Origin: Planctomycetia bacterium | GTDB taxonomy: Bacteria > Planctomycetota > Planctomycetia > Gemmatales > Gemmataceae | NCBI GenBank assembly: GCA_005808665.1 | Contig: SYLG01000093.1 | Location: 1-61,434 of the forward strand | DNA: 61,434 bases | Direction of reading: 5' to 3' | Part shown: piece by piece, positions 6,802 to 51,063 of the stretch | How positions within the stretch are numbered: position 1 is the first letter of the stretch | How the letters are laid out: each line of letters begins with the position of its first letter | Made by a program: the position numbers and the translations under genes | The notes under the pieces: model-generated | Database searches by the model: none | What the model saw: the letters and a program-made list of their open reading frames with translations, nothing else | Told to the model about the DNA's origin: nothing

Positions 6802-8160
6802 CTAAAACACTTGGTGAATGGGGGAGGTACCCTGATCGAGAAAAATGGGTTGATTGCTGGCCGTATAGAGTGGTTTTGTCCTGTCGATTCCCAGCTTTTC
6901 ATAAATAGTCGCGGCATAAGACTCTGGGGTATAGGGATCACTAAGCACCTTGCCTCCCTCCCGATCGGTGGCGCCGATGACTTGGCCGCCTGGAACCCCG
7001 GCCCCTGCCAAAGCGATCGAATAGGCATGATGCCAATGATCGCGCCCCTGAAACTTGTTCAACCGTGGCGTTCGGCCAAATTCAGTAACAAAACAAACAA
7101 GTGTTTCCGCCAAAAGGCCCCGTTCGTCCAAGTCCCTGATCAGGGCAGCAAAGGCCCGGTCGGTCGATCCCATCATCACCCAATGGCCTATTCCGTACCG
7201 CCCCTCGCCCCCCCCTTTGTCCCGAACCGTCCCACAAGAACCAGGCGTATAGATAAGGTCGTGATGGTCCCAATTGAGGTTACTGCCCCCGGGAACCTCC
7301 GGAGTAAGCGGCCATCGGACATCCACGGTGACAAAACGGACCCCGGCCTCGATCAGCTTTCTACCCACCAAATAGCAGGCCCCGCGGTGGCCGGCCCCGT
7401 AACTTTTTCTCACATGCTCGGGTTCGCGGGAATAGTCAAAGGCTTTGGCAACCTGATCGCTTGTCAGGGTGTCAAACGCCTGAGCATAAAAGGGATCCAT
7501 TGCCCCAGCCAAGCCGGTCAACAAATTGCGCCGACCTGCCAATCGTTGAACCGGAGTATCGGGCCGGGGCTCCAAAGGCCCCACCTTCCAATGGGGAGAA
7601 GAAAGGTCATTTCCCCCCGTTTTAAACACGCCATGGCCGGCAGCAAGGAAGCCGACGCCGGTTTGGTCGGCCTGTTCATGATTGCCTGGAACCATTACAT
7701 AAGGCGGCAGGGAACGGTTTCCCTTGCCAAGGATATGGGATGCCACCGAACCCATGTCAGGCATTTTGATAGGGCCTGAGGGATGGCAACCAGATAACAA
7801 ATACTTGGTTCCTTCGGGATGTCCACTTGCTCCCTCTTTTGAGTGGTGCATGGAGCGAATGACAGTCAATTTGTCGGCAACCTTGGCGGTTTCCCCAAGG
7901 AGTTCGGTAAACCGCATTCCCGGGACCCGGGTGGCAATCGGTTTATGGGGACTTCTATGTTCCACGACCGTTTCGGGTTTTGGGTCCCAGGTGTCGATGT
8001 GGGAAAGGCCGCCCTGCTCAAGAATTACCAAAACATTTTTCGCCTTGCCAAGGCTTGTGCGACCTGTCGCCGAAAGTAGTGTGGGAAGCGACAACCCCAA
8101 AATCCCCGAAGCACTTAAGCAGAGTAGGTCCCGTCGGTTGGGAGGAGGATGTCTTTTCAT
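6802..8160 (-). CDS. DUF1501 protein, Tat-exported (solo)
   Basis: A 452-residue protein of the DUF1501 family (alkaline-phosphatase/sulfatase-like fold). Start 8160 gives MKRHPPPNRRDLLCLSASG, a twin-arginine signal followed by a hydrophobic stretch; the frame is open to 8514 but that extension is not protein-like. Family motifs seen: LEQGGLSHIDTWDPKPE, HSKEGASGHPEGTKYLLSG, FVTEFGRTPRLNKFQGRDHW and the GAGVPGGQVIGATD segment near the C-terminus. Unlike the other four intact DUF1501 genes here it has no adjacent DUF1549/DUF1553 partner. Function is unknown; periplasmic hydrolase activity is inferred only from the fold. Confidence 0.9.
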   Translation of the reverse strand: MKRHPPPNRRDLLCLSASGILGLSLPTLLSATGRTSLGKAKNVLVILEQGGLSHIDTWDPKPETVVEHRSPHKPIATRVPGMRFTELLGETAKVADKLTVIRSMHHSKEGASGHPEGTKYLLSGCHPSGPIKMPDMGSVASHILGKGNRSLPPYVMVPGNHEQADQTGVGFLAAGHGVFKTGGNDLSSPHWKVGPLEPRPDTPVQRLAGRRNLLTGLAGAMDPFYAQAFDTLTSDQVAKAFDYSREPEHVRKSYGAGHRGACYLVGRKLIEAGVRFVTVDVRWPLTPEVPGGSNLNWDHHDLIYTPGSCGTVRDKGGGEGRYGIGHWVMMGSTDRAFAALIRDLDERGLLAETLVCFVTEFGRTPRLNKFQGRDHWHHAYSIALAGAGVPGGQVIGATDREGGKVLSDPYTPESYAATIYEKLGIDRTKPLYTASNQPIFLDQGTSPIHQVF

Positions 8161-8512
8161 GGCACCGAAAGGTTGCGGAGGTTTAGGGAGGTAGGAAACC
8201 TGGCAGGGAGACCGAGGATATTCTATGTCATTGCCAGATGGGAAGCTCAGAAATGCTATCCACGACCAAAAAACGGATGGACATAACCAATGGTTGGTCG
8301 AACAAGGGTAGTTTCCCTTGGAGCCAATCCGGGCATTTTTGGTTGAAAAAGGTTGGATGTTCCGGAAAAGGGAACACATTTTGTTAAAGTTTGCCAACCT
8401 GAAGGAAAAATCCGGTCTCGATTGGAACCCATGAATCCTCTGGGCTAGAATGAAAAGACGGTCTGCTTTTGCGGACCATTTGTTTTTTGGCTCTACCGGT
8501 TCGGATCTTTTC
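8161..8512. other. Divergent intergenic region
   Basis: A 352-base gap between the solo DUF1501 gene (minus) and the aminotransferase gene (plus). Promoters for both must lie here, but I find no clear consensus elements, hairpin or small gene. Confidence 0.4.
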
Positions 8513-9673
8513 ATGAAACCTCGATTGCTTTGTCCCGGCCCGACCCCTGTTCCCGAGGAAACTCTCCTTGAGTTGGCCAGACCCGTTACCTTTCACCGGT
8601 CCGCCCAATTTCGATCCGTTCTTGGTTCCGTGGTGGCCGACCTCCAGCAAGTTTTTTGCACAAAAAACCCAATTTGTGTGCTCACCAGCTCGGGAACCGG
8701 GGGAATGGAAGCGGCCCTTACCAATGTCATCCGGCCAGGGACCAAGATCCTTTGCTGCATCAGCGGGCGTTGGGGGGAACGCTGGAAAAACATTGCCAAG
8801 GCCTTTGGGGCCATCGTTATCGAAGTGACCTGTCCCTATGGCGAAGCCAATACCCCGGCCCAACTTGCCAAAGCCCTTGCGGAACATCCCGATGCCGCCG
8901 TCGTCACCGCAACCTTGAGCGAAACCAGCACCGGGGTTCGCAATGATATAAAAGGCTTGGGGGCGGTGGTCAAGGACACAAAGGCTGTGTTCATTGTCGA
9001 TGCGATCTCCGGCCTTGGGGTAATGGAGTGCCGAACGGATGACTGGAATATTGATTTCTGTGTAACGGGATCGCAAAAGGCGCTAATGCTTCCTGCTGGT
9101 TTGGCATTTGTTGCGGTGAGTGACAAAGGATGGAAGCGGGTGGACGAGGTTTTAACCCAGGGTCCAGCTTGCTCATTTTATTTTGACCTGCGCAAATATC
9201 GGGAAAACCTGAAGAACAATGACACCCCTTTTACCCCCGCCAACACCCTGATCAAGGCTCTTTCCCACAGTTTGGCAAGGCTAAAAACCGAGGGAATGGA
9301 GAAAGTTTGGCAGCGGCATGAACGAATGGCCGCCGCCGCCAGAGCTGCCGCAACGGGACTCAACCTCAAACTTTTTGCCAGGGTCAATCCAACCGCAGGC
9401 CTTACCGTTTACGAGATTCCCAGCGGGATGGATGGGTCCGTTTTGTTGGGTCGGCTGGAAAAAGAGCATGGGATTCGGATCGCAGGTGGCCAGGACACCA
9501 TGAAAGGCAAAATCATTCGGTTGGCACACATGGGATACATTGATTTCTTTGAGGTCCTTGCCGCAGTTTCTGCCCTGGAAATGGTCCTTGCTGACCTGGG
9601 TCACAAGGTAGAATCCGGTGCAGGAGTGGCAGCAGCCCAAAGGGCTTTTTCCTCGTGGAAGGCAGGAGCCTAG
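8513..9673 (+). CDS. Class V PLP aminotransferase, probable phosphoserine aminotransferase role
   Basis: A 386-residue fold-type I aminotransferase of the alanine/serine-glyoxylate type. It starts MKPRLLCPGPTPVPEE, the usual start of this family (pyruvate/serine-glyoxylate aminotransferases), which makes ATG 8513 preferable to the earlier ATG 8450. The PLP lysine is Lys189 in TGSQKALMLPAGLAF, and the cofactor aspartate is in IVDAISGLG (Asp163). It ends four bases before serA. That placement implies it transaminates 3-phosphohydroxypyruvate in serine synthesis in place of a classical SerC. Such substitution is known for class V relatives in some thermophiles and archaea; the specific activity here is inference. 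Confidence 0.88.
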   Translation: MKPRLLCPGPTPVPEETLLELARPVTFHRSAQFRSVLGSVVADLQQVFCTKNPICVLTSSGTGGMEAALTNVIRPGTKILCCISGRWGERWKNIAKAFGAIVIEVTCPYGEANTPAQLAKALAEHPDAAVVTATLSETSTGVRNDIKGLGAVVKDTKAVFIVDAISGLGVMECRTDDWNIDFCVTGSQKALMLPAGLAFVAVSDKGWKRVDEVLTQGPACSFYFDLRKYRENLKNNDTPFTPANTLIKALSHSLARLKTEGMEKVWQRHERMAAAARAAATGLNLKLFARVNPTAGLTVYEIPSGMDGSVLLGRLEKEHGIRIAGGQDTMKGKIIRLAHMGYIDFFEVLAAVSALEMVLADLGHKVESGAGVAAAQRAFSSWKAGA

Positions 9674-11755: not shown

Positions 11756-12607
11756 CTAAAACAGCCTGCCTTGTTGGTAAAGCGAGGCCAGGTCCATTGT
11801 AAGTGCCACCGCCATGTGCAGAATTGCCCCAGGCCAAATCGAACCGGTCCTCAAGCTCATTAACCCCAAGCCAAGACCGGCAAGTATCGCCGCAAACGCC
11901 TCGGGGGTGGGCTTGCCCCAATGAATCATGCAATAGGGCACCATGGCAATCGGGACGGCCAAGCTTCCAACGGTTCGCGAAAGTCGGTAAAGCAAAAATC
12001 CACGAAATAGGCTTTCCAGCGCAATGAATTGGACCAGGTAAAAGGCTTCCCAAAGGTAGAATCGGGGCCAAAGGCTCACCCCTTCGGGAATCCGGTAAAA
12101 CGGATACCGGTTCAAAAATTCCGTTTGCCTGATCGTCCAACTCAATACCAAAACCATAATCAAGGCAAAGCCGGCATAAATGGAAAGATGGTTTTTGGTT
12201 TTACCAACCCTCCAACCCATGTTTTCAGGAATCGAAAGGCCACTCACCAAAAGCCAAATGAGAGGCAAACCCAAATAGCCAATGATCGTGACGCTTGCCC
12301 ACCAAAGGAGATCGAGGAGTCTCCAATCCTCTCCCGACATCGACAGTATGCTGGCCGACCCTGAGGAACAACCCAAGGACCTTGCTACCCACTCGAGCAC
12401 CATTGGTCCGTTCATTCTTGCGGTATAGTGGACCCAAGTGAGCATGGCAGCCAACAAGGTCAGCAACAACCAGGATTCGCGGGTCGACTGGGGATTCGTA
12501 TGGGGAACGGGTTGGGGGTCCCAAACCATTTTTGCAAGGATCTGCAATTCACCAAGGATACCAGGTTGGGAAGGCAAAGCCTTGGTTGGCTCAGGTTTGG
12601 ACGGCAT
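11756..12607 (-). CDS. CPBP/Abi-type membrane protein with incomplete active site
   Basis: A 283-residue protein with about seven or eight membrane segments. The start at 12607 (MPSKPEPTKAL) lies inside the end of the upstream permease gene (17-base overlap). The CPBP (Rce1-like intramembrane protease) signature is recognisable. Motif 1 reads LESLFRGFLLYRL where the family has EExxxR, so the first glutamate is leucine. Motif 2 is YCMIH (FxxxH), and motif 3 is HMAVA where Asn or Asp usually follows His. Two of the canonical catalytic positions are therefore altered, and the protein may be a non-proteolytic member. It is the last gene of an operon with a phosphatase and an LptF/LptG-like permease. 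Confidence 0.7.
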   Translation of the reverse strand: MPSKPEPTKALPSQPGILGELQILAKMVWDPQPVPHTNPQSTRESWLLLTLLAAMLTWVHYTARMNGPMVLEWVARSLGCSSGSASILSMSGEDWRLLDLLWWASVTIIGYLGLPLIWLLVSGLSIPENMGWRVGKTKNHLSIYAGFALIMVLVLSWTIRQTEFLNRYPFYRIPEGVSLWPRFYLWEAFYLVQFIALESLFRGFLLYRLSRTVGSLAVPIAMVPYCMIHWGKPTPEAFAAILAGLGLGLMSLRTGSIWPGAILHMAVALTMDLASLYQQGRLF

Positions 12608-13697
12608 CGAACAAGACACAGGATAATGGTCCAAACAGCAGAATGGGTAACCATGCAGCAAGGGCCGGGGCAAGGATATTGGCGTTACCAAGCATTTGGA
12701 AAACCTGGATACTTATAAAGAACAGGCCGCATAAACCCAAACAGATGCCCATGGAGATGAACATATTGCGGCTTTGGTCGCCAAGGATCACACCCAGCCC
12801 CATGATTACCAAAATCATCCCTAAAACGGGTCGGGTCAAACGGGAATGAAAAAGCACAGCCATCCCGGCCATCTTGGTGGCATCATTTCGATGCAGTTCC
12901 TGATAAATGCGAGGTGTGGATTCAAGGGTGTACCAGGCCGGATCCTGGGTAAGCTTGGCAAATGTGACCTCACGGACCTGAAGGAAATAGTGACCGATAT
13001 CAACCGGTTCAAGGAGTTTGCTTTCCCGGTCAAAGCCTTCGATTTCTGCCGGATTGGTTTGCAATAGTTCCCATTTTCCACCACGCCCGCCCTCCGGTTC
13101 GGGGTGAAAAATAGCCTGTCGGGCGGTAATATGGATCAAATTTCCCGCCAGGGATTCGGGAATGGTAACTCTCAAATTGGTCACATCACGGTTGGTGCGA
13201 CTTGCTTTATCGCCCTCAATATGGATGCCATTTGTCTCATAACTGCCCCGGACTGCCATGGGACCCAAACCATTTGGATCCTCCTTCTGGCAAACCAGTT
13301 TTTCTGCCACAAGGGGTACAAATATTTCCTGATTGAGGATGGAAAGGCCAAGCATGGCAAATGCGCTGAACAACACCGGGGCAACAATGCGGCCCGTGGA
13401 GACCCCCGCTGCCAACAGCGGGACCTGCTCGTTGCAGCGTTGCATCCAGGTTATCGTAAACATCGCCGCCAGCAGGAGGATCGCCTCACACAAATGGTCG
13501 AAAATCTGCAATACCCGGTAGCTGTAAAAGGTGCTGATGTCGAGAAGGATTTGCTTGAACCCCCGACCTTTTCCTGTGAAATCGTCAAGGTTGGTAAAAA
13601 GATCCACCACGATGTACAAGGTCAACATACTGGTTAAACAAATGGCATACGCCCGGAAAAAATTGCCCACCAGTTGACGATCAATCAGGGTGATCAT
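12591..13697 (-). CDS. LptF/LptG (YjgP/YjgQ) family permease
   Basis: A 368-residue membrane protein with the YjgP/YjgQ layout: an opening IDRQLVGNFFRAYAICLT helix, further N-terminal helices (CEAILLLAAMFTITWM, VLFSAFAMLGLSILNQEIF), a large periplasmic domain of about 150 residues, then three C-terminal helices (LGMILVIMGLGVILG onward). In Gram-negative cells this family forms the membrane part of the Lpt ABC transporter moving lipopolysaccharide to the outer membrane. Its start overlaps the upstream phosphatase stop as ATGA (13694-13697). Only one family member is in the window, so whether it is LptF- or LptG-like cannot be said. Confidence 0.85.
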   Translation of the reverse strand: MITLIDRQLVGNFFRAYAICLTSMLTLYIVVDLFTNLDDFTGKGRGFKQILLDISTFYSYRVLQIFDHLCEAILLLAAMFTITWMQRCNEQVPLLAAGVSTGRIVAPVLFSAFAMLGLSILNQEIFVPLVAEKLVCQKEDPNGLGPMAVRGSYETNGIHIEGDKASRTNRDVTNLRVTIPESLAGNLIHITARQAIFHPEPEGGRGGKWELLQTNPAEIEGFDRESKLLEPVDIGHYFLQVREVTFAKLTQDPAWYTLESTPRIYQELHRNDATKMAGMAVLFHSRLTRPVLGMILVIMGLGVILGDQSRNMFISMGICLGLCGLFFISIQVFQMLGNANILAPALAAWLPILLFGPLSCVLFDAVQT

Positions 13698-14359
13698 GGA
13701 GCAACCCCGATGTTTGTCCGCAAAGGTTTTTGGTCCACCCCAACCAGGGCTTTTCGCACGCGAGGTTGGTATTCCAGAACATATTCCCGAACATAGTCGT
13801 TGGCTTCGGTGCAGGCTTTATCGCCATAGCCATGATCCCGCATCTCCCGATGCGCCTGATCCGGGGACCAGCCTTCGTATTCCATCCGATAAATGGCAAT
13901 CAGAACACCCGTTCGGTGAAGGCCTGCCTTGCAATGGACCAACATCGGATAGTTTTCTTTGTCATCGTAGGTCGCCAACATTTCCTCGATCACCTTGGGG
14001 CGATCGCCTGGTTTCGCATTGCGACTGATCAAGTCAGGCATGAGGTGGATGTATTTCACACCCATTTCCGCACAAAGGGCTTGCTCCTTTATGGTGGAGT
14101 GGTCATACCATGATTTCACAATATCCGGATCGGGAAACTCATCCTGAAGGTTCACCACGCTTTTGATTCCAAGGTCACGAATGGATTGGCGAAATCCGGC
14201 CGCCGTAAGCTGGCCACTCCGATACAGTTTGCCTGGGGTTACTTCACGCAGTCGTTTGTTGAACGACCAATAGACCCGGTAATAGACGAAAACCCCTGTG
14301 CCAAACGCCAATAATAGCGCCAAGCCTAAAAGGGTTCGGAGTGGATTGGCCAGAGTCAT
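13694..14359 (-). CDS. Membrane-anchored tyrosine/dual-specificity phosphatase
   Basis: A 221-residue protein with one N-terminal membrane segment (LRTLLGLALLLAFGTGVFVYY) and a cysteine phosphatase domain. The P-loop is HCKAGLHRTG (Cys143 from this start) and a candidate general acid lies in the NLQDEFPDPD stretch. Start 14359 (ATG) is chosen over an in-frame GTG at 14392; neither has a good ribosome site, so this is uncertain. It heads an overlapping operon with an LptF/LptG-like permease. Substrate could be a phosphoprotein, phosphoinositide or an envelope phosphoglycolipid. Confidence 0.82.
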   Translation of the reverse strand: MTLANPLRTLLGLALLLAFGTGVFVYYRVYWSFNKRLREVTPGKLYRSGQLTAAGFRQSIRDLGIKSVVNLQDEFPDPDIVKSWYDHSTIKEQALCAEMGVKYIHLMPDLISRNAKPGDRPKVIEEMLATYDDKENYPMLVHCKAGLHRTGVLIAIYRMEYEGWSPDQAHREMRDHGYGDKACTEANDYVREYVLEYQPRVRKALVGVDQKPLRTNIGVAP

Positions 14360-14597
14360 ATCCCTAGGTATTCCATTCTCAATAACGGTCACCGGAGTCC
14401 GGCCCGACTATGCCCGGTTTTGCCCCAGGAAACAAGGCCGATTGGACCCACAATGGGCAAACAAGGCAAAACAGGAGGCCTTGAATGCTCCGGCCACTCG
14501 CTTGGCCAGGCCTTTCTTTTCCCATAAGTTTGGGAGGAGGGCATCCTCGCCTTGGCACCACCTCGTTCCCCAATTTATCCGTACCATGGAGTAGCTC

Positions 14598-15350
14598 ATG
14601 ACCTGTTCCAAACAATCGTTCACAGTTGGTACCCATTTCACCGCCTGTCTGGTAGGTTTTGCAACCATATTACTTCCCACCCCGGTCCACGCTCAAGAGT
14701 CGGCACCGGAGGCAAAAATCAGTATCGGCACCGGCAAGGGTTGGGTGACTTTGGGGGAGAAGGATTTTCAGATGGTCAATGGTGACCCCGATACCTGGGT
14801 TTGGAAGGAGGAGGTCCTTGTCTGCAAGGGCACCCCGGTGGGCGTCACCAAAAGCGTCAAAACCTTTACCAATTTTGAAATGGTTGCGACCTGGCGCCAC
14901 CTGAAAAAAGCTGGAAATTCAGGAATTTTTTTGTGGGCCAGCGAAGCGGGTCTCAAGGGGCTCAAACCAAACCAACTGCCTGGGGTAGGGATCGAAGTCC
15001 AAATTTTGGACCATGGCTATACCGAACAATTTGAAAAATCGTCCGGCAAAAAAGCCGATTGGTTCACCACCCATGGCGATGTCTTCCCGGTGGGTGGGTC
15101 CAAAATGATCCCTTTTGAACCCAAAGCCCCAGGTGGGTCTCGTAGCTTTCCCTCCAAAAATCTCAGCTTGGGGGTGGGAGAATGGAACCATTACTACATC
15201 CGGGCGATCGACGGCGAAGTCAGGCTTTGGGTCAATGGGGGAGAGGTTTCCGGCGGCACCAAGTGCAATCCCAAAACGGGTTTTATCTGTCTTGAATCCG
15301 AAGGGTCTCCTGTCGAATTCAAAAACCTGCGGATTCGCGAACTGCCATAA
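14598..15350 (+). CDS. Secreted DUF1080 protein (3-keto-glycoside hydrolase/lyase family)
   Basis: A 250-residue protein with a signal peptide (TACLVGFATILLPTPVHAQE) and one jelly-roll domain of the DUF1080 family (now described as 3-keto-disaccharide hydrolase). Typical elements are DTWVWKEEVLVCKG, TNFEMVATWRHLKKAGNSGIF, PGVGIEVQILDHGY, GEWNHYYIRAIDGEVRLWVNG and a closing GSPVEFKNLRIREL. Family members cleave glycosides after oxidation at C3 of the sugar. It lies about 2.5 kb from a Tat-exported Gfo/Idh/MocA oxidoreductase that could supply the 3-keto substrate. Catalytic residues are not assigned by eye. Confidence 0.85.
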   Translation: MTCSKQSFTVGTHFTACLVGFATILLPTPVHAQESAPEAKISIGTGKGWVTLGEKDFQMVNGDPDTWVWKEEVLVCKGTPVGVTKSVKTFTNFEMVATWRHLKKAGNSGIFLWASEAGLKGLKPNQLPGVGIEVQILDHGYTEQFEKSSGKKADWFTTHGDVFPVGGSKMIPFEPKAPGGSRSFPSKNLSLGVGEWNHYYIRAIDGEVRLWVNGGEVSGGTKCNPKTGFICLESEGSPVEFKNLRIRELP

Positions 15351-15565
15351 GGTTGTTTTTGTTGGGACGCTCCCGTTACCCGCCTATTTGTGACATTGTG
15401 CCGATGGCCGAAATTGTACCATGCCTTGGGGGCGTTTTCCCAACGAACTCCCAATGCTTGAAGGGTGATTTTATTCAGGCATTTCCGGTAGGCTCATGCC
15501 CAAATGCTCTCCCGGTTCGGGATGGTTGATCACCTTGGTATTTCCAAGGTTGTTGAAGGTTTCCA

Positions 15566-17458
15566 TTACGGAGCCTTGGGCGCATATTTCTGAATCCATT
15601 CTTCGAAACGATTCAGCGGTTCGGTCCGCTCGCTTTTGGACTGGTAAAAATGGTACCCGATACTGGCCCGGTTCAAATGAAACACTTCGCCGAGTGCTTT
15701 AAGGGCAAATTGGCGATTGATCAGATACGGGTCATCAAGAGCCTTTTTGGCATCCGGAAGGAAGGCGGGATTGGCTGTTCTGATCAGGGCATTGGCTCCA
15801 ATTAGCCTTACCGCCGGGTTATCGCTTTCCAGCCAACCTTTGGCCACAGCTCCTTTTCGATTGGGATACCTTAAATCAATCCGCCAATCCTCATAGGTTT
15901 TGCCATACCACTCTTTCAGATAATTCAAAGTCCAATCAATCGGTTTATCCGCATGGCAAACATTGCAGGCGTTGGGTTGATTGGCATAAAGCATATCCGG
16001 CCTGGTCGGCGAAAAAATCATGTGGGTGCGGACAACCTCTTCCAGCCCTTCGTGGATTTTGGGCATATGGCAATTCTGGCACCGATCGCCCTCGGATCCG
16101 CCCTGGTGGTGGGTGTGGGCCTTTCGTTTGGGTCCATCCTGTAAATGTTGATGACACCTTAAACAGGCAGCATCATCCTTCGTTTGCGTTTGCGCCCATT
16201 TCAAGCCAATGGGTTGGTGAGGATTGTGGCAATCCACGCACTTTAATTGGGAATAGCAGGAACCATTGATCGCATCGGTATATTCCACCGAGTTCCAGGT
16301 GGACATGCCCGCCTCAAAGGTTGGCCGGCTGCCCGAGTGACACCTGGAGCAGATCCAATTGCTATTGGCATGGGTCCTTCCCGGGTCGGGTTTCTTGGCC
16401 GATTCGGATGAGGCGCCCTGCACCTCAATGGATAGAAAAGGGCTTTTGGGAACAAAATCCGGAGGAATTTTTCCCTCACTTTCAGCGTGTGCTTTGGCTC
16501 CCAAGTGACAGGCCTCGCAACTGATCCCAAGGGCCACGGCATAGCGGGGAGCATCCCAAGCCGCCATCGGATTGGCTCCTCCATGCCCCTTTTGCAAAAG
16601 CTGTTCCATTTTGGGGGATTCATCCGGATAGTTTTGATCCAGATAGGGTTTCATGGACCAGTGCATTTTGAAAGGGGCATGGGCCGTTACCTGTTGGGGC
16701 CTCCTGGCTAGCAAGTCCCCAAGGGCAAAGGTGGTATGGCAATGATTGCAACTGGTCGCATACTCCGCAAAGTGCTTCCCCTTGCCAGGGGGCTGGAAGG
16801 GGTCGGGGCGTTCCCCATCCGGGAGTTCCGGGCCAATATGGACGACCGGTACCCATTCCTTGCTTGCCAACCAATAGCCAAAAGGCAGCACATGCTCCTT
16901 GGTGTAAAAATCGTGATCTTTAGGCTCAGGGCCATCGACGAGAGTGCCCACATAGTACTGATGCGACCTGCTGCCAATCGTTTGATGGACCTGGTAGGTC
17001 CTTTTGATGGCACCCCTTTCAAGGCGCATTTGCTGGATCCCCTGGACCGTTTCAAAATGTACCTTTCCCCCAAGGTAGGCAAGGACATCCTTCCCTGAAA
17101 AATCGCCAAGAACCGTTTGGGAGGTCGCCTTTGCATTCATCCAACGATGGGGGTGGATGGACCAACCTTGATGGTTGGCTGGATGGCATTTTTTGCAGGC
17201 ATCTGCCCCTACATAATCCGAAGGGTGGATGTTTGCCCCAGGACCCGAATTCAGAACGACCTGATTCCTTTGCGATTCGAGTTGATTCCACCACACCGTA
17301 AGTTTGGGAAACGATGCCAAAACAATAGGAAGTGGATCCGGGTTGGTTATTCCCGGTAAAGGGAGTTCCCCGGGAACGCCCTCGGGGGGAGTCCCCCAGG
17401 GCAAAAAGAACCAACACAACGCCGCCAAAATCCCCAGGGAGGTCAAGCAGGCAACCAT
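15566..17458 (-). CDS. Octaheme c-type cytochrome
   Basis: A 630-residue exported or membrane-anchored protein (MVACLTSLGILAALCWFFLP) with eight CxxCH heme-attachment motifs beginning at residues 88, 237, 314, 370, 407, 432, 460 and 498: CKKCH, CNHCH, CEACH, CSRCH, CVDCH, CLRCH, CQNCH and CNVCH. No CxxCK is present. The long stretch between the first and second motifs and the C-terminal 130 heme-free residues (with LIGANALIRT and LINRQFALKALGE, HEAT-like) are distinctive. Eight hemes recall the hydroxylamine oxidoreductase/octaheme nitrite reductase group, but the motif spacing looks more like cytochrome c-554-related multiheme proteins. Likely role: periplasmic electron transfer or a redox enzyme. 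Confidence 0.85.
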   Translation of the reverse strand: MVACLTSLGILAALCWFFLPWGTPPEGVPGELPLPGITNPDPLPIVLASFPKLTVWWNQLESQRNQVVLNSGPGANIHPSDYVGADACKKCHPANHQGWSIHPHRWMNAKATSQTVLGDFSGKDVLAYLGGKVHFETVQGIQQMRLERGAIKRTYQVHQTIGSRSHQYYVGTLVDGPEPKDHDFYTKEHVLPFGYWLASKEWVPVVHIGPELPDGERPDPFQPPGKGKHFAEYATSCNHCHTTFALGDLLARRPQQVTAHAPFKMHWSMKPYLDQNYPDESPKMEQLLQKGHGGANPMAAWDAPRYAVALGISCEACHLGAKAHAESEGKIPPDFVPKSPFLSIEVQGASSESAKKPDPGRTHANSNWICSRCHSGSRPTFEAGMSTWNSVEYTDAINGSCYSQLKCVDCHNPHQPIGLKWAQTQTKDDAACLRCHQHLQDGPKRKAHTHHQGGSEGDRCQNCHMPKIHEGLEEVVRTHMIFSPTRPDMLYANQPNACNVCHADKPIDWTLNYLKEWYGKTYEDWRIDLRYPNRKGAVAKGWLESDNPAVRLIGANALIRTANPAFLPDAKKALDDPYLINRQFALKALGEVFHLNRASIGYHFYQSKSERTEPLNRFEEWIQKYAPKAP

Positions 17459-17858
17459 TTTCCAGTGACCCAAAGGTTACCGGCCCTTTCCCATTAATCA
17501 ATGCTTCCAAACACTAGGGTACCAGATTTGCCTCCTCACTGCGATGGTTTTTGGCGGATACTTTTGCTTATACACCAAGAAGTCCAAATAGGGCTCACTT
17601 GTGTGGGCAGAATTGGGTTAGACGGCTCCACCGGTTCTTACAAACCAAAAACCAGTCCAAAGCGTTCTTGGATGAATTGGAAATTGCGAATGGATTTTTT
17701 TGGGGAAAAACAAAATGTCATGAAAAAGCTTTGGTCTGGCCCAAAAAATAAACCCTGGGCAACCGGGTCAGGAAGCGATAATTCACTAGAGTTTCTTTGA
17801 GCCTGCCTGAAGCCCACCTTCCCAGGGTGGAATGTCAAAACCGTGAAGGAATATTGCC
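17459..17858. other. Divergent intergenic region
   Basis: A 400-base gap between the octaheme cytochrome (minus) and the Gfo/Idh/MocA gene (plus). Short frames here look random. A run rich in A (around 17695-17755) may be part of promoter DNA. No hairpin, repeat or RNA gene is recognised. Confidence 0.4.
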
Positions 17859-19256
17859 ATGTCGAAAAACCCAATCCGACGGGAGTTTCTGAAAACCTGC
17901 TCCGCTTTCACTGGAGGAGGGATCCTTGCGGCCGGGGCACAACTAACCGCACCCCGGTTTTTACGCGCCAAAGACACCCACAACCGGCTGAATATTGCCG
18001 TCATAGGTAGTGGGGGCCGGGGCGGGGGCAACCTCCAAAGTGTTTCGTCCCAAAACATCACCCTCCTTTGTGATGTCAATGGTCAAGCCCTTGGCCGGGC
18101 AGGAATGGCCCATCCCAAGGCGGAACAATTCAGGGATTTTCGAAGGGCATTTGACCGATCCAACCAATTCGATGCCGTCGTGGTTAGCACCTGTGAACAT
18201 ACCCATGCTTTTGCCACCTTGGCAGCACTTCAATTGGGTAAACATGTCTATTGCGAAAAGCCCCTCACCCACAACATTTATGAAGCCAGAGTGATTCGTT
18301 TGGCCGCGGCGAAAACCAGGGTCGCTACCCAAATGGGAATCCAGATCCATGCTGAAAACAACTATAGAAGAGTGGTGGAGTTGATTCAATCAGGGGCCAT
18401 TGGCAAGGTTTCCGAAGCCCATGTTTGGGTGGGCCGAGCATGGGGTCTGCAATCGGCAGAGGAGGCCAAGGCTCATAATGACATTGTTCATGTGATGGAT
18501 AGGCCCAAGGAAACGATGGCCATTCCTCCTGAGTTGGACTGGGACCTTTGGTTAGGGCCAGCTCCCAAGCGCCCGTTTCATCCGGTCTATTTTCCCGGCC
18601 CAAAATGGTATCGTTGGTGGGATTTTGGCAATGGCACCATGTCCGATCTGGGAAGTCACTGGAATGACCTTCCCTTTTGGGCACTCAAGCTCAAAGCTCC
18701 AGTATCTGTGGAAGCAACGGGGCCTAAACCCCATCCCGAAATCGCCCCAGCGTCCATGCAGGCGACCTATGAATTTCCTGCCCGTGACAATATGCCTCCT
18801 GTCAAAATGGTCTGGTATCAGGGTGCCTACAAACCACCCTATTGGAACGATGGTTCCATTCCCAAATGGGATAGTGGGGTGCTTTTTATCGGAGACAAGG
18901 GAATGCTCCTTTCCGATTATGGCAAACACCTCCTTCTCCCCGAGAAGGAATTCCTCGACTTCAAACGCCCTGAACCATTCCTCAAAAACTCCATTGGCCA
19001 CCATCTGGAGTGGATCGAGGCCTGTAAAACGGGGGCATCCACCACTTGCAATTTTGAATATTCTGGCTGGTTAACCGAATCCAATCATCTGGGGAATGTG
19101 GCCTTCCGCATGGGGAAAAAACTCCTTTGGGACGAAAAAACGATGCGAGCCACCAACTGCCCCGAGGCAGACCGCCTCATTCGGCGGGATTACCGAAAAG
19201 GCTGGGATTTAGCCATGGATGCGAAAAATAATCCTGACAGCCTTGAGACCCTATAA
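17859..19256 (+). CDS. Tat-exported Gfo/Idh/MocA oxidoreductase
   Basis: A 465-residue protein beginning [20 protein letters not shown], a classical twin-arginine signal, preceded by AAGGA ten bases upstream. The Rossmann NAD(P) motif is [15 protein letters not shown] and the conserved lysine is in [13 protein letters not shown]. The C-terminal half has the usual beta-sheet domain ([21 protein letters not shown], a planctomycete-typical segment). Exported members carry a tightly bound nucleotide and oxidise or rearrange sugars in the periplasm, including 3-dehydrogenation of glycosides. Its stop overlaps the next gene's start by one base (TAATG). Confidence 0.92.
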
Positions 19257-20365
19257 TGAAAATCCATGGTCAGGGCCCCTTTTTCAATCGGTGCCATCTG
19301 GGCTGGGCAATCCTTATCTGGACAACTGCCTCATCCGTTTTTGCCACCGAGCCGACCCCTGAAACCCTACGCCTTGCTGTCAACAAATCTATGCCTTTGC
19401 TCCAAAAGGGAATGGTCGGCCACACCCAGGAACGGACCTGTTTTGCCTGTCATAACCAGGCAATGCCGATCCTTGCCTTAACCACCGCCCGTGGGAAGGG
19501 GTTTGAGGTAAGTAACGACCTACTCAAATCCCAGGCATCTTTCATAACCGAATTTCTCGAAAAAAACAAAAGTCGTTACCAGGAAGGGCAAGGCCAGGGA
19601 GGTCAGGTCGTCACGGCCGGTTATGCCCTCCTGGCCTTGGAACTTTGTGAGGGGAAACCCGATTCCCTTTCCAAGGCGGTTTCAGAATATTTCCTTCGCT
19701 ACAACCAGGACCTTGATCATTGGCGGGGGCATTCCAATCGCCCTCCTTCCGAAGGGAGTCCATTTACGGCAACTTATTTGGCCATTCGCGCATTGCAAAA
19801 ATTCGGAGCACCCGATCAAAAAGAACGAATAGAAAAACGCATCAGGGAGGTTCAGCAGTGGCTGCTAAAGGCCCCCGCAAAGGATACCGAGGATCGCACT
19901 TTTCGTTTGTGGGCGCTCATGGCGGTCCAGGCAGGCAAGAATTCCTTGCAGGCAGCGGTTGCTGAATTGGTGTCTTCCCAGCGCGAAGATGGTGGTTTTG
20001 CCCAGCTGGACACGATGAAAAGTGACATATACGCCACGGGACAAGTGCTTGTTCTTTTGCACCTTGCAGGAGGTATGGCAACCAGCGACCCGGTCTACCA
20101 GCGTGGCTTGGCCTACCTCCTGAAGGAACAATTACCGGACGGGTCCTGGCATGTGAAAACCCGAAGTGTTCCCATCCAAACCTATTACGAAAGTGGTTAT
20201 CCCCACGGCAAGGACCAATTCATTTCCCTTCATGCGGCCAGTTGGGCAACCACGGCGCTGGCGTTGGCCTGCCCGATACAACCCCAAACGGTGAAAAGCA
20301 ATAATCCACCCAAGGTGGTTAAACCCATGACCAAACCTGAATTGGAAGGTTCCCCTAAAAAATAG
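19256..20365 (+). CDS. Exported heme-binding prenyltransferase/squalene-cyclase-fold protein
   Basis: A 369-residue protein with a signal peptide (LGWAILIWTTASSVFA). One CxxCH motif, CFACH (62-66), follows, then repeats of the alpha/alpha-toroid type: VTAGYALLALELCEGK, FTATYLAIRALQKFG, FRLWALMAVQAGK, LVSSQREDGGFAQL, YATGQVLVLLHLAGG, LKEQLPDGSWHVKT. The QREDGGF and EQLPDGSW elements are the QW-type repeats of squalene-hopene cyclases and prenyltransferases. The DxDD catalytic motif of cyclases is not seen, so enzymatic cyclisation is unlikely. One-base overlap with the Gfo/Idh/MocA gene argues for coupled synthesis and a shared periplasmic task. Confidence 0.82.
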   Translation: MKIHGQGPFFNRCHLGWAILIWTTASSVFATEPTPETLRLAVNKSMPLLQKGMVGHTQERTCFACHNQAMPILALTTARGKGFEVSNDLLKSQASFITEFLEKNKSRYQEGQGQGGQVVTAGYALLALELCEGKPDSLSKAVSEYFLRYNQDLDHWRGHSNRPPSEGSPFTATYLAIRALQKFGAPDQKERIEKRIREVQQWLLKAPAKDTEDRTFRLWALMAVQAGKNSLQAAVAELVSSQREDGGFAQLDTMKSDIYATGQVLVLLHLAGGMATSDPVYQRGLAYLLKEQLPDGSWHVKTRSVPIQTYYESGYPHGKDQFISLHAASWATTALALACPIQPQTVKSNNPPKVVKPMTKPELEGSPKK

Positions 20366-38611: not shown

Positions 38612-40042
38612 ATGATTGGCCCCATTTCATTGGCGAACCGTAGGCACTTTTTGGGTCGTTCGTGTTTGGGATTTGGTTCCTTGGCCCTAAACGCCATGCT
38701 TTCCCAGAAAGCACAGGGAGGGTCGGGGCTCATGCCCCACGCCGTACCCAAGGCCAAGTCGGTCATTTGGCTTTTCATGAACGGAGGCACCAGCCATCTG
38801 GAAAGTTTCGATCCCAAGCCCGAATTGGACAAATATGCGGGAAAAACCATTTCGGAAACACCCTATAAGGATGTCCAAAATCCCAATAGGTTCAAGGATT
38901 TGAGAGTCGTTGCCAAGGGAGATGCCAACGGCCAACAACGGCATCGCTTGCTTGCCAGGCAAATCGGGTTTCAGAAAAGGGGGCAATGTGGCATTCCCGT
39001 TTCCGATTGGTACCCACACCTTGGGTCCATGATTGACGAAATGGCCATCGTCAAATCCATGTGGACCACGGATGATAACCACGGCGCCCAGACCCAATTC
39101 CATTCCGGTAGACATATGCTTGATGGGGAATTTCCAAACCTGGGTGCATGGGTACATTATGGTTTGGGGACTCTCAATGAAAATCTTCCCCAGTTCATTT
39201 CGATGGGAACGAGGGAGTATTGGAACAAACGCGATGGCCATTATCTTGGGCCAAGCCATGATGCGGTACCGGTCAAGGTGGATACCGCCAACCCGCTCGA
39301 TTTTGGTCGTCCTGAATCGGACATGACCTTTGCCGAACAAAAATCCGCCTTTGGCCTGTTGGACAAATTGGGGACCATTGCAGCAACCAGGCGCCCTTAC
39401 GATCGGGACTTGGAGGCTCGGTTGCAATCGTATGAATTGGCGTTTCGCATGCAAAAGTCCCTACCCGAGGTAATGGATTTTGCCAAGGAAACCGAGGCGA
39501 CCCGGAATCTATACGGCCTCGACCGGTCGGAAACCCGGCCGTTTGGACAACAACTTTTGGCGACAAGGCGGCTGGTTGAAAAGGGAGTGCGGTTTGTCCA
39601 GATTCAACATGGGGGAGGTGGTGCCGGGGCGTGGGATGCCCATGAGGGACTGAAGGGCAATCATGCCACCCTTTGCCAACAAACCGACAAACCGATGGCG
39701 GGATTATTATTGGATCTCAAAAGGCGCGGCCTGTTGGAAACGACCTTGGTGGTATGGGCCACCGAATTTGGCCGGACCCCGGGAACTCAAGGGTCAACCG
39801 GCAGGGATCACCACCCGTTTGCCTTCAGCATATGGATGGCGGGGGGCGGCATTAAAGGGGGCGTTGCCCATGGAGCCACCGATGAAATCGGTTTCCACGC
39901 GGTTGAAAACCGGCACTATGTCACCGATGTCCACGCCACGATTTTGCACCTTATGGGGCTTGATAGCAGAAAATTGGAGATCCCGGAGCGTAAACGGCTG
40001 GAGATAGACCATGGCCAGGTAATCAGGGAAATTTTGGCCTGA
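38612..40042 (+). CDS. DUF1501 protein, pair A
   Basis: A 476-residue protein starting [20 protein letters not shown], a twin-arginine-type signal, with GGGGGA seven bases upstream. Family motifs: [80 protein letters not shown] and [13 protein letters not shown]. The fold is alkaline-phosphatase-like but metal ligands are not assigned. Close spacing to the cytochrome-type gene suggests a shared transcript and probably a complex. Confidence 0.93.
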
Positions 40043-40606: not shown

Positions 40607-43342
40607 GTGTCACCCTTGAACCTGAACAGGATACCCTGGTTCGCCTTCCCCTTTTTGCCAAAGGAGAAAGCCCGTCTCGTAGGGGTAGTAATTGTATTGG
40701 CCCTGTTAGGCATGGATTGGCCAGCTGCCAGGGGAGGGGACCTTTGGTCGCTCAAACCCTTGACCAAGCCACCGCTCCCGGCCACCGGGAATCCAAGCCA
40801 GGGCCTTACAAACCCCATCGATTCCTTCGTAATGGAAAAACTGCATTCAAAAGGCTTAAAACTATCCCCCCCTACGGACCGGAGGAGCTTGCTTCGCCGG
40901 GCCTATTTTGATGTTCTTGGGTTGCCGCCGACGCCAGCGCAAATGCGTACTTTTTTGGCGGACCCCAACCCTTTGGCATGGGAAAGGGCGGTCGATGGAC
41001 TTTTGGCTTCCCCCCACCATGGCGAGAAGATGGCTCGATTCTGGATGGACATTGTCCATTTTGGTGAAACCCATGGCCATGATCAGGACCGGATTCGTCC
41101 CCACGCATGGCCCTATCGTGACTATTTGATCAAGGCGTTCAACGATGATAGGCCATGGGCCCGTTTCGTCAAGGAACAGCTTGCTGCGGATCAGGCTTAC
41201 CCGGACCGTCCCGACCTGATTCCTGCCCTTGGCCTCCTTGCGGCAGGCCCATGGGATGAAAGTTCCCTTCGGGACATCCGGGAGGATACCATTGATCGTG
41301 AGATGGGGCATTATCTGGACCGCGATGACATTATCACTACGGTAATGTCCACCTTTCAGGGTGTGACTGTCCATTGTGCCCGCTGTCATGACCACAAATT
41401 TGACCCCGTTGGTCAGGAAGAATACTATCGGCTGCAAGCGGTATTTGCCGGGATCGGTCGGGGCAACCGTGGTTTTGAGCCCGACCCCATCAAGGCGAAA
41501 CAACGCCAACAACTTGCCAGGTTAAAAGCCGAATTGGAAAAAGGGGATCGTAAACTGTGGTCTGCGGAATTGCTTGCCCGGTTGGATTCCAAACCTTTTC
41601 AACAAAAGCTGCTTGCATTGGAAGGAAAGGTAACCAGGCCACTTTGGCATGGCTTGGATATCGAGTCCTTTACGGCAAAAAATGGTTCAAAACTGGTGAA
41701 ATCCCCGGATGGATCCATTCGTGCCGAGGGGCCAACCCCCCTGACCGAAATCACCACCATCGTGCTCAAAGGACCAGTTCAAAAGGTTACCGCGCTCCGG
41801 CTGGAACTGTTAACCGATCCATCGTTACCTCACAATGGTCCCGGCCGGTGCAGCAATGGCAACCTGCACCTGAACGAATTCGTGGTCCACAAACGGTCAG
41901 ACCTGGGAGATGAAAACCTTCTTTTAAGAGGACCATTGTCTGACTTTGACCAGGAGGGATGGACCATCCAACATGCGGTGGATGGCAACCCCGACACGGC
42001 TTGGGGAATCCATCCCCGCGAAGGGGAACCCCACGAGGCCCTATTTCCCTTGTCGGTGCCGGTTACCCTAAACGCAGGGGAAAGCCTGGTGGTTCGCCTT
42101 GACCAGACTCATGGAAGGGAACACCTGATTGGCAGGTTTCGCCTTCAGGTCACAGAAACACCCGGCCCGTTTGCTGTCGCCAAAGTCACCAATGCATTGC
42201 GGGTTATTATCGCCAAACCCCTCGCCAGCCGGTCAGCAGCCGAATCCTTGGTGATCGAAAAATACATCCTTGACCAGATGGTAGCCGAAGAACTGCTCGC
42301 CTTGGGACCGATGCCCATGGCTTTCGTTGGGGTGCCCGATTTCGAGGCGGATGGCAGTCACAAACCTCCTAGAAAGGCAAGACCCGTCCACCTTTTGAAA
42401 CGGGGGGAAATCCGCAGGAAATCGGATATCATTGGTCCAGGCTCGCTGGATTGCCTGAATCATATGCCCCTCCCTCCGGGTGAACTTTCAGAAAGCTTGG
42501 CCCGGGCTTGGCTTTCGGATTGGATCGGCCACAAGGACAATCCGCTTACTTGGCGAACGATTGCCAATCGGGTGTGGCAAACGCATTTTGGCAAAGGAAT
42601 CGTGGCAACCCCCAACGATTTTGGCAACATGGGCGAAGCACCGACCCACCCGGAGTTGTTGGATTATCTTGCCACCCTGGTTCGTGATAATGGTGGCCAC
42701 CTGAAGCCCCTTCATCGCCTGATCCTCACCAGTTCTACCTGGATGCAGGCATCCCAATCCAACCCACAAGCGTCGAAACAGGATGCAGCCAACCGGTTTT
42801 ATTGGACCGCCCCAAGGCGAAAGTTGGATGCTGAGCAATTTCGGGACGCCTTATTACTTGCCGCCGGACGCCTGGATACGCGCATGGGGGGCCCTTCGGA
42901 ACAACAATTCCTGACAAAGGCCAGCGTACATGTGACCCCGACCATCGATTACAAGGGGTTTGACTGGACCAAGGCAGGCAACCATCGGCGAAGTGTGTAC
43001 CGGTTTATTTACAGGACCCTACCTGATCCCCTTGTCGAAAGCCTGGATGGGGCGGATGCAGCGCAATTTACCCCGGTTCGAACAGAATCAACAGGCCCAC
43101 TTCAGGCCCTTGCCCTTTGGAACGATCCATTTATCCTGGCCATGGCCGGGTTTATGGCTGCGGATGTCGCCCGGGAATCGGGTAATCCCAGAAGCCAGAT
43201 CGCTATTGCATGCCAAAGGCTTTGGGGCCGGGAACCTGACCCAAACGAGGCATTCGTCCTTTTGCCCCACCTGAAAAAAGCAGGATTAGCTTCCCTTTGC
43301 CGGGTGCTCATGAATTCCTCCGAATTTCTCTATCTGGATTAG
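40607..43342 (+). CDS. DUF1549-DUF1553 protein without PSCyt1 domain, pair B
   Basis: A 911-residue exported protein. There is no ATG near the N-terminus; GTG 40607 (or TTG 40616) precedes the signal segment LVGVVIVLALLGMDWPAARG, so the start is uncertain. DUF1549 begins RRAYFDVLGLPPTPAQMRTF and contains one heme motif, [11 protein letters not shown]. The N-terminal PSCyt1 domain present in pairs A and C is absent. The middle section (DNPDTAWGIHPREGEPHEAL-type) resembles a discoidin/F5-8-type carbohydrate-binding insert. DUF1553 ends the protein (NPLTWRTIANRVWQTHFGKG, LKPLHRLILTSSTWMQ). Its DUF1501 partner follows after 7 bases. Confidence 0.9.
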   Translation: MSPLNLNRIPWFAFPFLPKEKARLVGVVIVLALLGMDWPAARGGDLWSLKPLTKPPLPATGNPSQGLTNPIDSFVMEKLHSKGLKLSPPTDRRSLLRRAYFDVLGLPPTPAQMRTFLADPNPLAWERAVDGLLASPHHGEKMARFWMDIVHFGETHGHDQDRIRPHAWPYRDYLIKAFNDDRPWARFVKEQLAADQAYPDRPDLIPALGLLAAGPWDESSLRDIREDTIDREMGHYLDRDDIITTVMSTFQGVTVHCARCHDHKFDPVGQEEYYRLQAVFAGIGRGNRGFEPDPIKAKQRQQLARLKAELEKGDRKLWSAELLARLDSKPFQQKLLALEGKVTRPLWHGLDIESFTAKNGSKLVKSPDGSIRAEGPTPLTEITTIVLKGPVQKVTALRLELLTDPSLPHNGPGRCSNGNLHLNEFVVHKRSDLGDENLLLRGPLSDFDQEGWTIQHAVDGNPDTAWGIHPREGEPHEALFPLSVPVTLNAGESLVVRLDQTHGREHLIGRFRLQVTETPGPFAVAKVTNALRVIIAKPLASRSAAESLVIEKYILDQMVAEELLALGPMPMAFVGVPDFEADGSHKPPRKARPVHLLKRGEIRRKSDIIGPGSLDCLNHMPLPPGELSESLARAWLSDWIGHKDNPLTWRTIANRVWQTHFGKGIVATPNDFGNMGEAPTHPELLDYLATLVRDNGGHLKPLHRLILTSSTWMQASQSNPQASKQDAANRFYWTAPRRKLDAEQFRDALLLAAGRLDTRMGGPSEQQFLTKASVHVTPTIDYKGFDWTKAGNHRRSVYRFIYRTLPDPLVESLDGADAAQFTPVRTESTGPLQALALWNDPFILAMAGFMAADVARESGNPRSQIAIACQRLWGREPDPNEAFVLLPHLKKAGLASLCRVLMNSSEFLYLD

Positions 43343-50106: not shown

Positions 50107-50850
50107 TTACTTTAAATCGCGGAGATAGATGTTTTTGAACCAGAGTTTGTCCCCATGGTATTGCAATTCAATCGGGCCCGTGGCAGGAAGGGGTTGGCCT
50201 TTTTCCCAATAATTGGCCAAGGGTGCCCCCTCCACCACACAAACGCCATTAAGGTGAACCGTTACTTTTTCATCCTTCATGACAATGCGAAAAGTGTTCC
50301 ATTCTCCAACCGGTTTATCCGCTTTGACGAGGGGCACTTTCCCGACACTTTTGGGGGTTGCCCCGGGGGGAACCGGGTTGTTCCACAATCCACCCGACCC
50401 GGTCCCGGCATCCGCCTTGAGGCTGGCAGGGAGGTTTTCCGAATCCCATATTTGGATCTGGGGATTTCCCCGGAGATAAAGCCCACTATCGCCCGCTTTT
50501 TCGATTTTCCAATCCAGCAACAATTCGAAATTGCCATAGTCCTTGGCGGTTTGCAAGCTGCACCCGCTCTTCCTGCCTTTGGAGTCTATTTTGGGGACAT
50601 GCTGGATGATTCCGTCTTTCACAAACCAGGTTTCTTCCAGAAGCAGGTCTCGTGTTTCCTGAAGCTTGGCCCGCTCGGTTGGAGGTTTTTTGCGTTCGTT
50701 CATGTCCAGGTGGCCTTTCCACCCGCTTAAGTCCTTGCCATTGAAAAGGGCCGTGAAACCCTCGGGCGGTTGATTGTCCCCGGCTTGGGCAAAAACGGGC
50801 AGGCAAACCAAAGCACAAAGGAGCCATTGGGAAAGACGATAACTCGCCAT
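50107..50850 (-). CDS. Secreted DUF1080 protein (3-keto-glycoside hydrolase/lyase family), second copy
   Basis: A 247-residue protein. Start 50850 (MASYRLSQWLLCALVCLPVF) has AAGGA eight bases upstream; the frame is open to 50910 without support. The mature protein opens with EGFTALFNGKDLSGWKG, the canonical DUF1080 start, followed by GCSLQTAKDYGNFELLLDWK, AGDSGLYLRGNPQIQIWD, VGEWNTFRIVMKDEKVTVHL and GPIELQYHGDKLWFKNIYLR. It is a better match to the family than the copy at 14.6 kb. Periplasmic glycoside cleavage is inferred. It stands between pair C and the desaturase gene on the same strand. Confidence 0.9.
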   Translation of the reverse strand: MASYRLSQWLLCALVCLPVFAQAGDNQPPEGFTALFNGKDLSGWKGHLDMNERKKPPTERAKLQETRDLLLEETWFVKDGIIQHVPKIDSKGRKSGCSLQTAKDYGNFELLLDWKIEKAGDSGLYLRGNPQIQIWDSENLPASLKADAGTGSGGLWNNPVPPGATPKSVGKVPLVKADKPVGEWNTFRIVMKDEKVTVHLNGVCVVEGAPLANYWEKGQPLPATGPIELQYHGDKLWFKNIYLRDLK

Positions 50851-51063
50851 GAGAACATTCCTTGGGAGGGTGGAAAGGATTGGGATTGTCAATCTAAAAA
50901 AAGGCCCCAAAAGGGCCAGTCAAATGCCAGCCTTGGCCGTGGTAATTCAAGGGATTTCGGGAAGGGATTGCCCACCGGGACTGGTTTTGTGGCAAAGGGC
51001 GAAGCCAAAAATAGCTTCCATGGCAAAAGTTTCGGCAGGGGGCCGAAAGGACTCCCTCCCCTT

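Follow-up and report, generated by a model that had tools for sequence, protein, structure and literature searches.

Four genes for exported, redox-looking proteins stand close together in a planctomycete genome of 4.48 Mb, and their grouping raises the question of whether they serve one pathway. They lie within a 61,434-nucleotide stretch of contig SYLG01000093.1 (hereafter the window). A first-pass annotation had read them as a candidate sugar-oxidation module in which two haem proteins carry the electrons of a sugar dehydrogenase. The locus was examined across 95 genomes of the host's family, many of them drafts, in which the lack of a gene says less than an empty site does.

The four genes and their products

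All four open reading frames listed by the first-pass annotation were present, with the identities that it gave them; the octaheme gene is on the minus strand and the other three are on the plus strand. The annotation had itself remarked that the genes are not all on one strand. The first gene (14598..15350, plus strand) encodes a protein of the DUF1080/3-keto-disaccharide hydrolase family with a Sec-like signal peptide. It scored 94.3 bits against PF06439 (cut-off 26.8) over profile positions 12-187 of 187, and had weak sequence likeness to solved DUF1080-type structures (E 0.005-0.02). Next comes a block of 2,504 bp without counterpart in relatives (15353..17856), which contains the gene for an octaheme c-type cytochrome (15566..17473, minus strand) and a 385-bp divergent intergenic stretch. 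Because this stretch is common to the octaheme and dehydrogenase genes, co-regulation of the two is possible. Candidate promoters and terminators did not exceed the level found in shuffled sequence.

The third gene (17859..19256, plus strand) encodes a Gfo/Idh/MocA oxidoreductase with a twin-arginine (Tat) leader (IRREFLK). A Rossmann dinucleotide domain (PF01408, 49.7 versus 24 bits) and the EKP lysine motif were present. The best solved structures in a PDB sequence search were 8tdf and 8tdh (E about 1e-66); the GSGGRG (GxGGRG-type) and EKPLTH motifs aligned with 8tdf and a later D/H motif with 8tdf/8tdh. By far the best NCBIfam model was NF058561, the BT_2158 glycoside 3-dehydrogenase, so the nearest relatives are of the BT_2158 type; the score of 321 bits fell below the cut-off of 750, and equivalence to BT_2158 is therefore not established. 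Pfam and NCBIfam searches returned Gfo/Idh/MocA domains only and did not place the protein among LacABC-type enzymes, and no flavin or haem motif was found by sequence and domain searches.

The fourth gene (19256..20365, plus strand) shares one base of its ATG with the dehydrogenase stop codon (TAATG), an overlap which suggests that the two are co-translated. Its predicted exported product, whose fold had gone unnamed in the first-pass annotation, is a squalene-cyclase-like alpha/alpha toroid according to profile, PDB sequence and model searches. The model (pLDDT 84) matched squalene-hopene cyclases at a TM of about 0.5 (0.52-0.54 for 8paj and 8pak). The protein scored 24.4 bits against the hopene-cyclase equivalog, below its cut-off of 431, the DxDD catalytic motif was absent from the sequence, and, unlike the cyclases, it has a conserved CFACHNQ motif (CxxCH) in its N-terminal part. 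This single CxxCH, a putative haem motif, was invariant in 17 of 17 aligned sequences and for that reason is taken to matter. A conserved C-terminal stretch was also seen in the toroid family (L076-L095), comprising R303, P306, Q308, G314, P316, Q321, I323 and S324.

The octaheme protein, read from a TTG start, has an N-terminal hydrophobic membrane helix, a beta domain that separates haem 1 from haem 2, and HEAT-like helices at its C-terminus. It contains exactly eight CxxCH motifs, and since all eight were invariant in 31 aligned sequences the pattern is not due to chance. The same alignment held seven further invariant histidines (H107, H109, H329, H419, H453, H456 and H484), one short of the number required for eight bis-histidine haems, so that the sixth position of one haem could be open or differently occupied. 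No significant match was found by sequence search of solved structures, or by Foldseek (no E below 0.09) with the predicted model, which was built without haems (pLDDT 81). A second look at this haem-free model with VIA placed OcwA first (Z 9.4, rmsd 4.1, 302 residues), above the unrelated rows, with the undecaheme cytochrome 6qvm (Z 7.5) and MccA (Z 5.2) also in the list; multihaem cytochromes ranked first only in VIA. OcwA, OmhA and MccA were the best candidate structural matches in that comparison. OcwA and OmhA differ from the window protein in having nine or eleven haem motifs rather than eight (MccA also has eight), and all three lack its C-terminal HEAT-like helices. OcwA serves as a terminal reductase and has relatives among the multihaem enzymes of nitrogen and sulphur cycling (PMC6703420).

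Elsewhere in the window, a second DUF1080 gene with a higher score (150 bits; 50107-50910) adjoins a fatty acid desaturase and not a dehydrogenase. Between 38612 and 49956, the open reading frames at 38612, 43350 and 45389 cluster with a DUF1501 gene at 6802-8514 and adjoin large homologous open reading frames at 40607 and 46846.

The DUF1080 and dehydrogenase pair

The host genome contained 33 Gfo/Idh/MocA and 24 DUF1080 matches. With both families so abundant, chance alone would put roughly one such pair within 3 kb in this genome, so that proximity alone is weak evidence and any grouping needs comparative support. One further pair in the host lies outside the window (G000:C174:31420-33437): a Gfo/Idh/MocA gene and, directly after it in the same orientation, a DUF1080 gene, uninterrupted by any cytochrome.

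Orthologs of the DUF1080 gene were found in 24 of the 95 family genomes and orthologs of the dehydrogenase gene in 42. Ten genomes contained both, and in all ten the two were neighbors. In the nine genomes other than the host, the DUF1080 ortholog (65-82% identical) was directly upstream of the dehydrogenase ortholog, with 40-103 bp between the aligned ends. The ten genomes span three genera, seven of them falling in one, and so do not count as independent events. Co-presence of the two genes was uncorrelated (10 genomes versus 10.6 expected among the 95, a figure that, like the other co-occurrence statistics given here, takes no account of kinship), and the majority of the remaining orthologs are unaccompanied by the partner gene; the evidence for the pair is its adjacency, not co-presence. 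On this evidence the partnership that had been proposed between the DUF1080 protein and the exported dehydrogenase held: the two form a genuine, ordinary, conserved pair.

We infer the chemistry, substrate and cofactor recycling of this pair as follows. The Tat-exported dehydrogenase, with bound NAD(H), would oxidize a sugar ring at carbon 3, after which the weakened glycosidic bond of the 3-keto product would be cleaved by the DUF1080 enzyme. Export by the Tat route fits a dinucleotide bound beforehand, as in the glucose-fructose oxidoreductase of Zymomonas. The bound cofactor would most simply be regenerated by reduction of a keto-sugar in the same compartment, and with such recycling the sugar pair would require no cytochrome.

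The nearest characterized system is that of Bacteroides thetaiotaomicron, BT2156-BT2160, which as described in citing papers likewise has a Gfo/Idh/MocA dehydrogenase of the same broad family (BT_2158) beside a DUF1080 enzyme (BT2157); it is a multi-gene operon, unlike the two enzymes of the window. The lactose 3-dehydrogenase LacABC of Caulobacter combines a GMC-type flavin enzyme with a cytochrome c subunit. As described in a citing paper, LacABC with the DUF1080 hydrolase CCNA_01705 resembles the window pair in oxidizing a disaccharide at C3 in the periplasm before a DUF1080 hydrolase acts, the two being encoded close together, and differs in that the dehydrogenase is a membrane-bound, three-component enzyme and not a Gfo/Idh/MocA protein (PMC9007349). 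The same paper assigns the DUF1080 proteins BT2157 and CCNA_01705 to 3-keto-sugar hydrolysis. BT2158 together with BT2156 or BT2157 is reported to be enough for converting glucosinolates in vitro (PMC12385236), so the nearest characterized system can work without a cytochrome.

The octaheme and toroid genes in relatives

The octaheme gene was found between the pair genes in none of the nine other genomes with the pair. A genome of the same genus (L021) is colinear with the window at 11769-15352 and 17857-19206; the alignment stops at the DUF1080 stop codon and restarts 2 bp before the dehydrogenase start, and L021 has 92 unrelated bp where the host carries the 2,504-bp block. Short gaps were also found at this site in two more genomes (L022 and L024). 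We infer that the block was inserted in the host lineage and not lost repeatedly elsewhere. A search of its edges for a mobile-element signature gave no noteworthy flanking repeats. A recent horizontal arrival of the octaheme gene was rejected, as its GC3 and codon fit match those of its neighbors; because codon use is host-like, the insertion would not be recent.

Octaheme relatives were found in 32 of 397 genomes of the class (E < 1e-40), the greater part of them belonging to two other families; those relatives that were named came from planctomycete MAGs. Within the host's family the gene occurred in three of the 95 genomes. One of the other two (G098) carries it megabases from the dehydrogenase ortholog and the other (G221) has no dehydrogenase ortholog. 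Co-occurrence was at the level of chance among the 95 genomes, both with the dehydrogenase (2 versus 1.3 expected) and with the DUF1080 gene (1 versus 0.8). Thirty-five further octaheme loci were read, of which two pairs proved to be one and the same contig, leaving 33 distinct loci. When the window proteins were searched directly against the 33, neither the dehydrogenase ortholog nor the toroid turned up at any of them; the closest cases were a 29%-identical dehydrogenase homolog (L144) and a DUF1080 fragment of 54% identity at a distance of about 8 kb (L145). A more sensitive rescan found a DUF1080-like gene at two of these loci and a Gfo-like gene at two. The recurrent neighbors were GDSL hydrolase, FG-GAP/ASPIC-UnbV/TPR and YfhO-like genes. 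Tandem octaheme cytochrome genes, 43% and 49% identical to that of the window, were seen at L061/L127, and an octaheme gene followed by a seven-CxxCH protein with a TPR-like tail was seen at L063/L126. The simplest reading of the octaheme protein is a role in respiratory electron transfer independent of the sugar pair.

The toroid gene was far more widespread, occurring in 55 of the 95 family genomes. It co-occurred mildly with the dehydrogenase (30 genomes versus 24.3 expected, p 0.02, statistics that ignore kinship), and adjoined it in none of the 29 other family genomes with both; where one contig carried the two, they came no closer than about 17 and 21 kb. The same-genus genome L021 retains the pair and has no toroid gene; its synteny with the window ends exactly at the dehydrogenase C-terminus. 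The toroid is judged not to be a conserved partner of the dehydrogenase.

Readings of the locus

The reading that we consider probable has as its core a two-gene exported 3-keto-glycoside unit, between whose genes an independent OcwA/MccA-like octaheme gene would have been inserted on the opposite strand in the host genome, and to which the toroid gene would have been joined by rearrangement. The latter event would have placed the one-haem toroid gene immediately downstream of the dehydrogenase gene.

The strongest alternative, though an unlikely one, is that the toroid aids the dehydrogenase in the host lineage as a scaffold, a sugar-binding protein or a redox accessory, and that the octaheme protein has nothing to do with it. 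The one-base frame overlap, the full conservation of the toroid motif across its family and the mild co-occurrence agree with such a role. They are set against the fact that the toroid never adjoins the dehydrogenase elsewhere, its absence from the same-genus genome that retains the pair, and the loss of synteny at the dehydrogenase C-terminus, as a chance junction would give.

It is very improbable that dehydrogenase electrons pass to the one-haem protein, on to the octaheme protein and into respiration while the DUF1080 enzyme cleaves the 3-keto product. All four proteins look exported, the dehydrogenase and CxxCH-protein frames overlap, and the octaheme gene diverges from the dehydrogenase gene over a common upstream region. 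An FAD-type glucoside 3-dehydrogenase accepts a haem c protein as electron acceptor (PMC9915066), which lends such a chain a precedent; this is a different class of enzyme from the window dehydrogenase, which is a dinucleotide-dependent Gfo/Idh/MocA protein free of flavin or haem motifs. The arrangement is unique to the host genome: all four genes occurred together in the host only (1 of 95), and neither haem gene had a conserved linkage to the pair, so the suggestion that the haem proteins serve as its electron carriers finds no backing among the relatives, an outcome which the first-pass annotation had named as counting against its module. A literature search found no paper combining Planctomycetes, a multihaem cytochrome and DUF1080. 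The four-part electron-carrying module is not supported. Gfo/Idh/MocA hydride chemistry is not known to feed a cytochrome directly. The narrower proposal that the octaheme protein and the co-translated toroid were recruited in the host lineage as an electron outlet for the dehydrogenase is extremely doubtful and drew no positive support; if true, it would couple a Gfo/Idh/MocA glycoside 3-dehydrogenase to a multihaem chain. An ancestral octaheme gene between the pair genes, later deleted cleanly in other lineages, would accord with host-like codon use and with octaheme relatives in two other family genomes, but is extremely unlikely, as it needs clean loss at the identical spot in three genera and the other family octaheme genes lie elsewhere (G098 and G221).

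Under the preferred reading of a pair with two unrelated additions, four exported, redox-looking genes close together, two of them from abundant families, are no evidence of a shared pathway. Comparison with relatives singled out the conserved part, predicted to be a compact exported unit of two genes acting on 3-keto-glycosides, and brought out two families worth separate study: an uncharacterized OcwA-like octaheme cytochrome that ends in HEAT-like helices, and an uncharacterized squalene-cyclase-fold protein with an invariant CxxCH, present in more than half of the genomes of the host's family.
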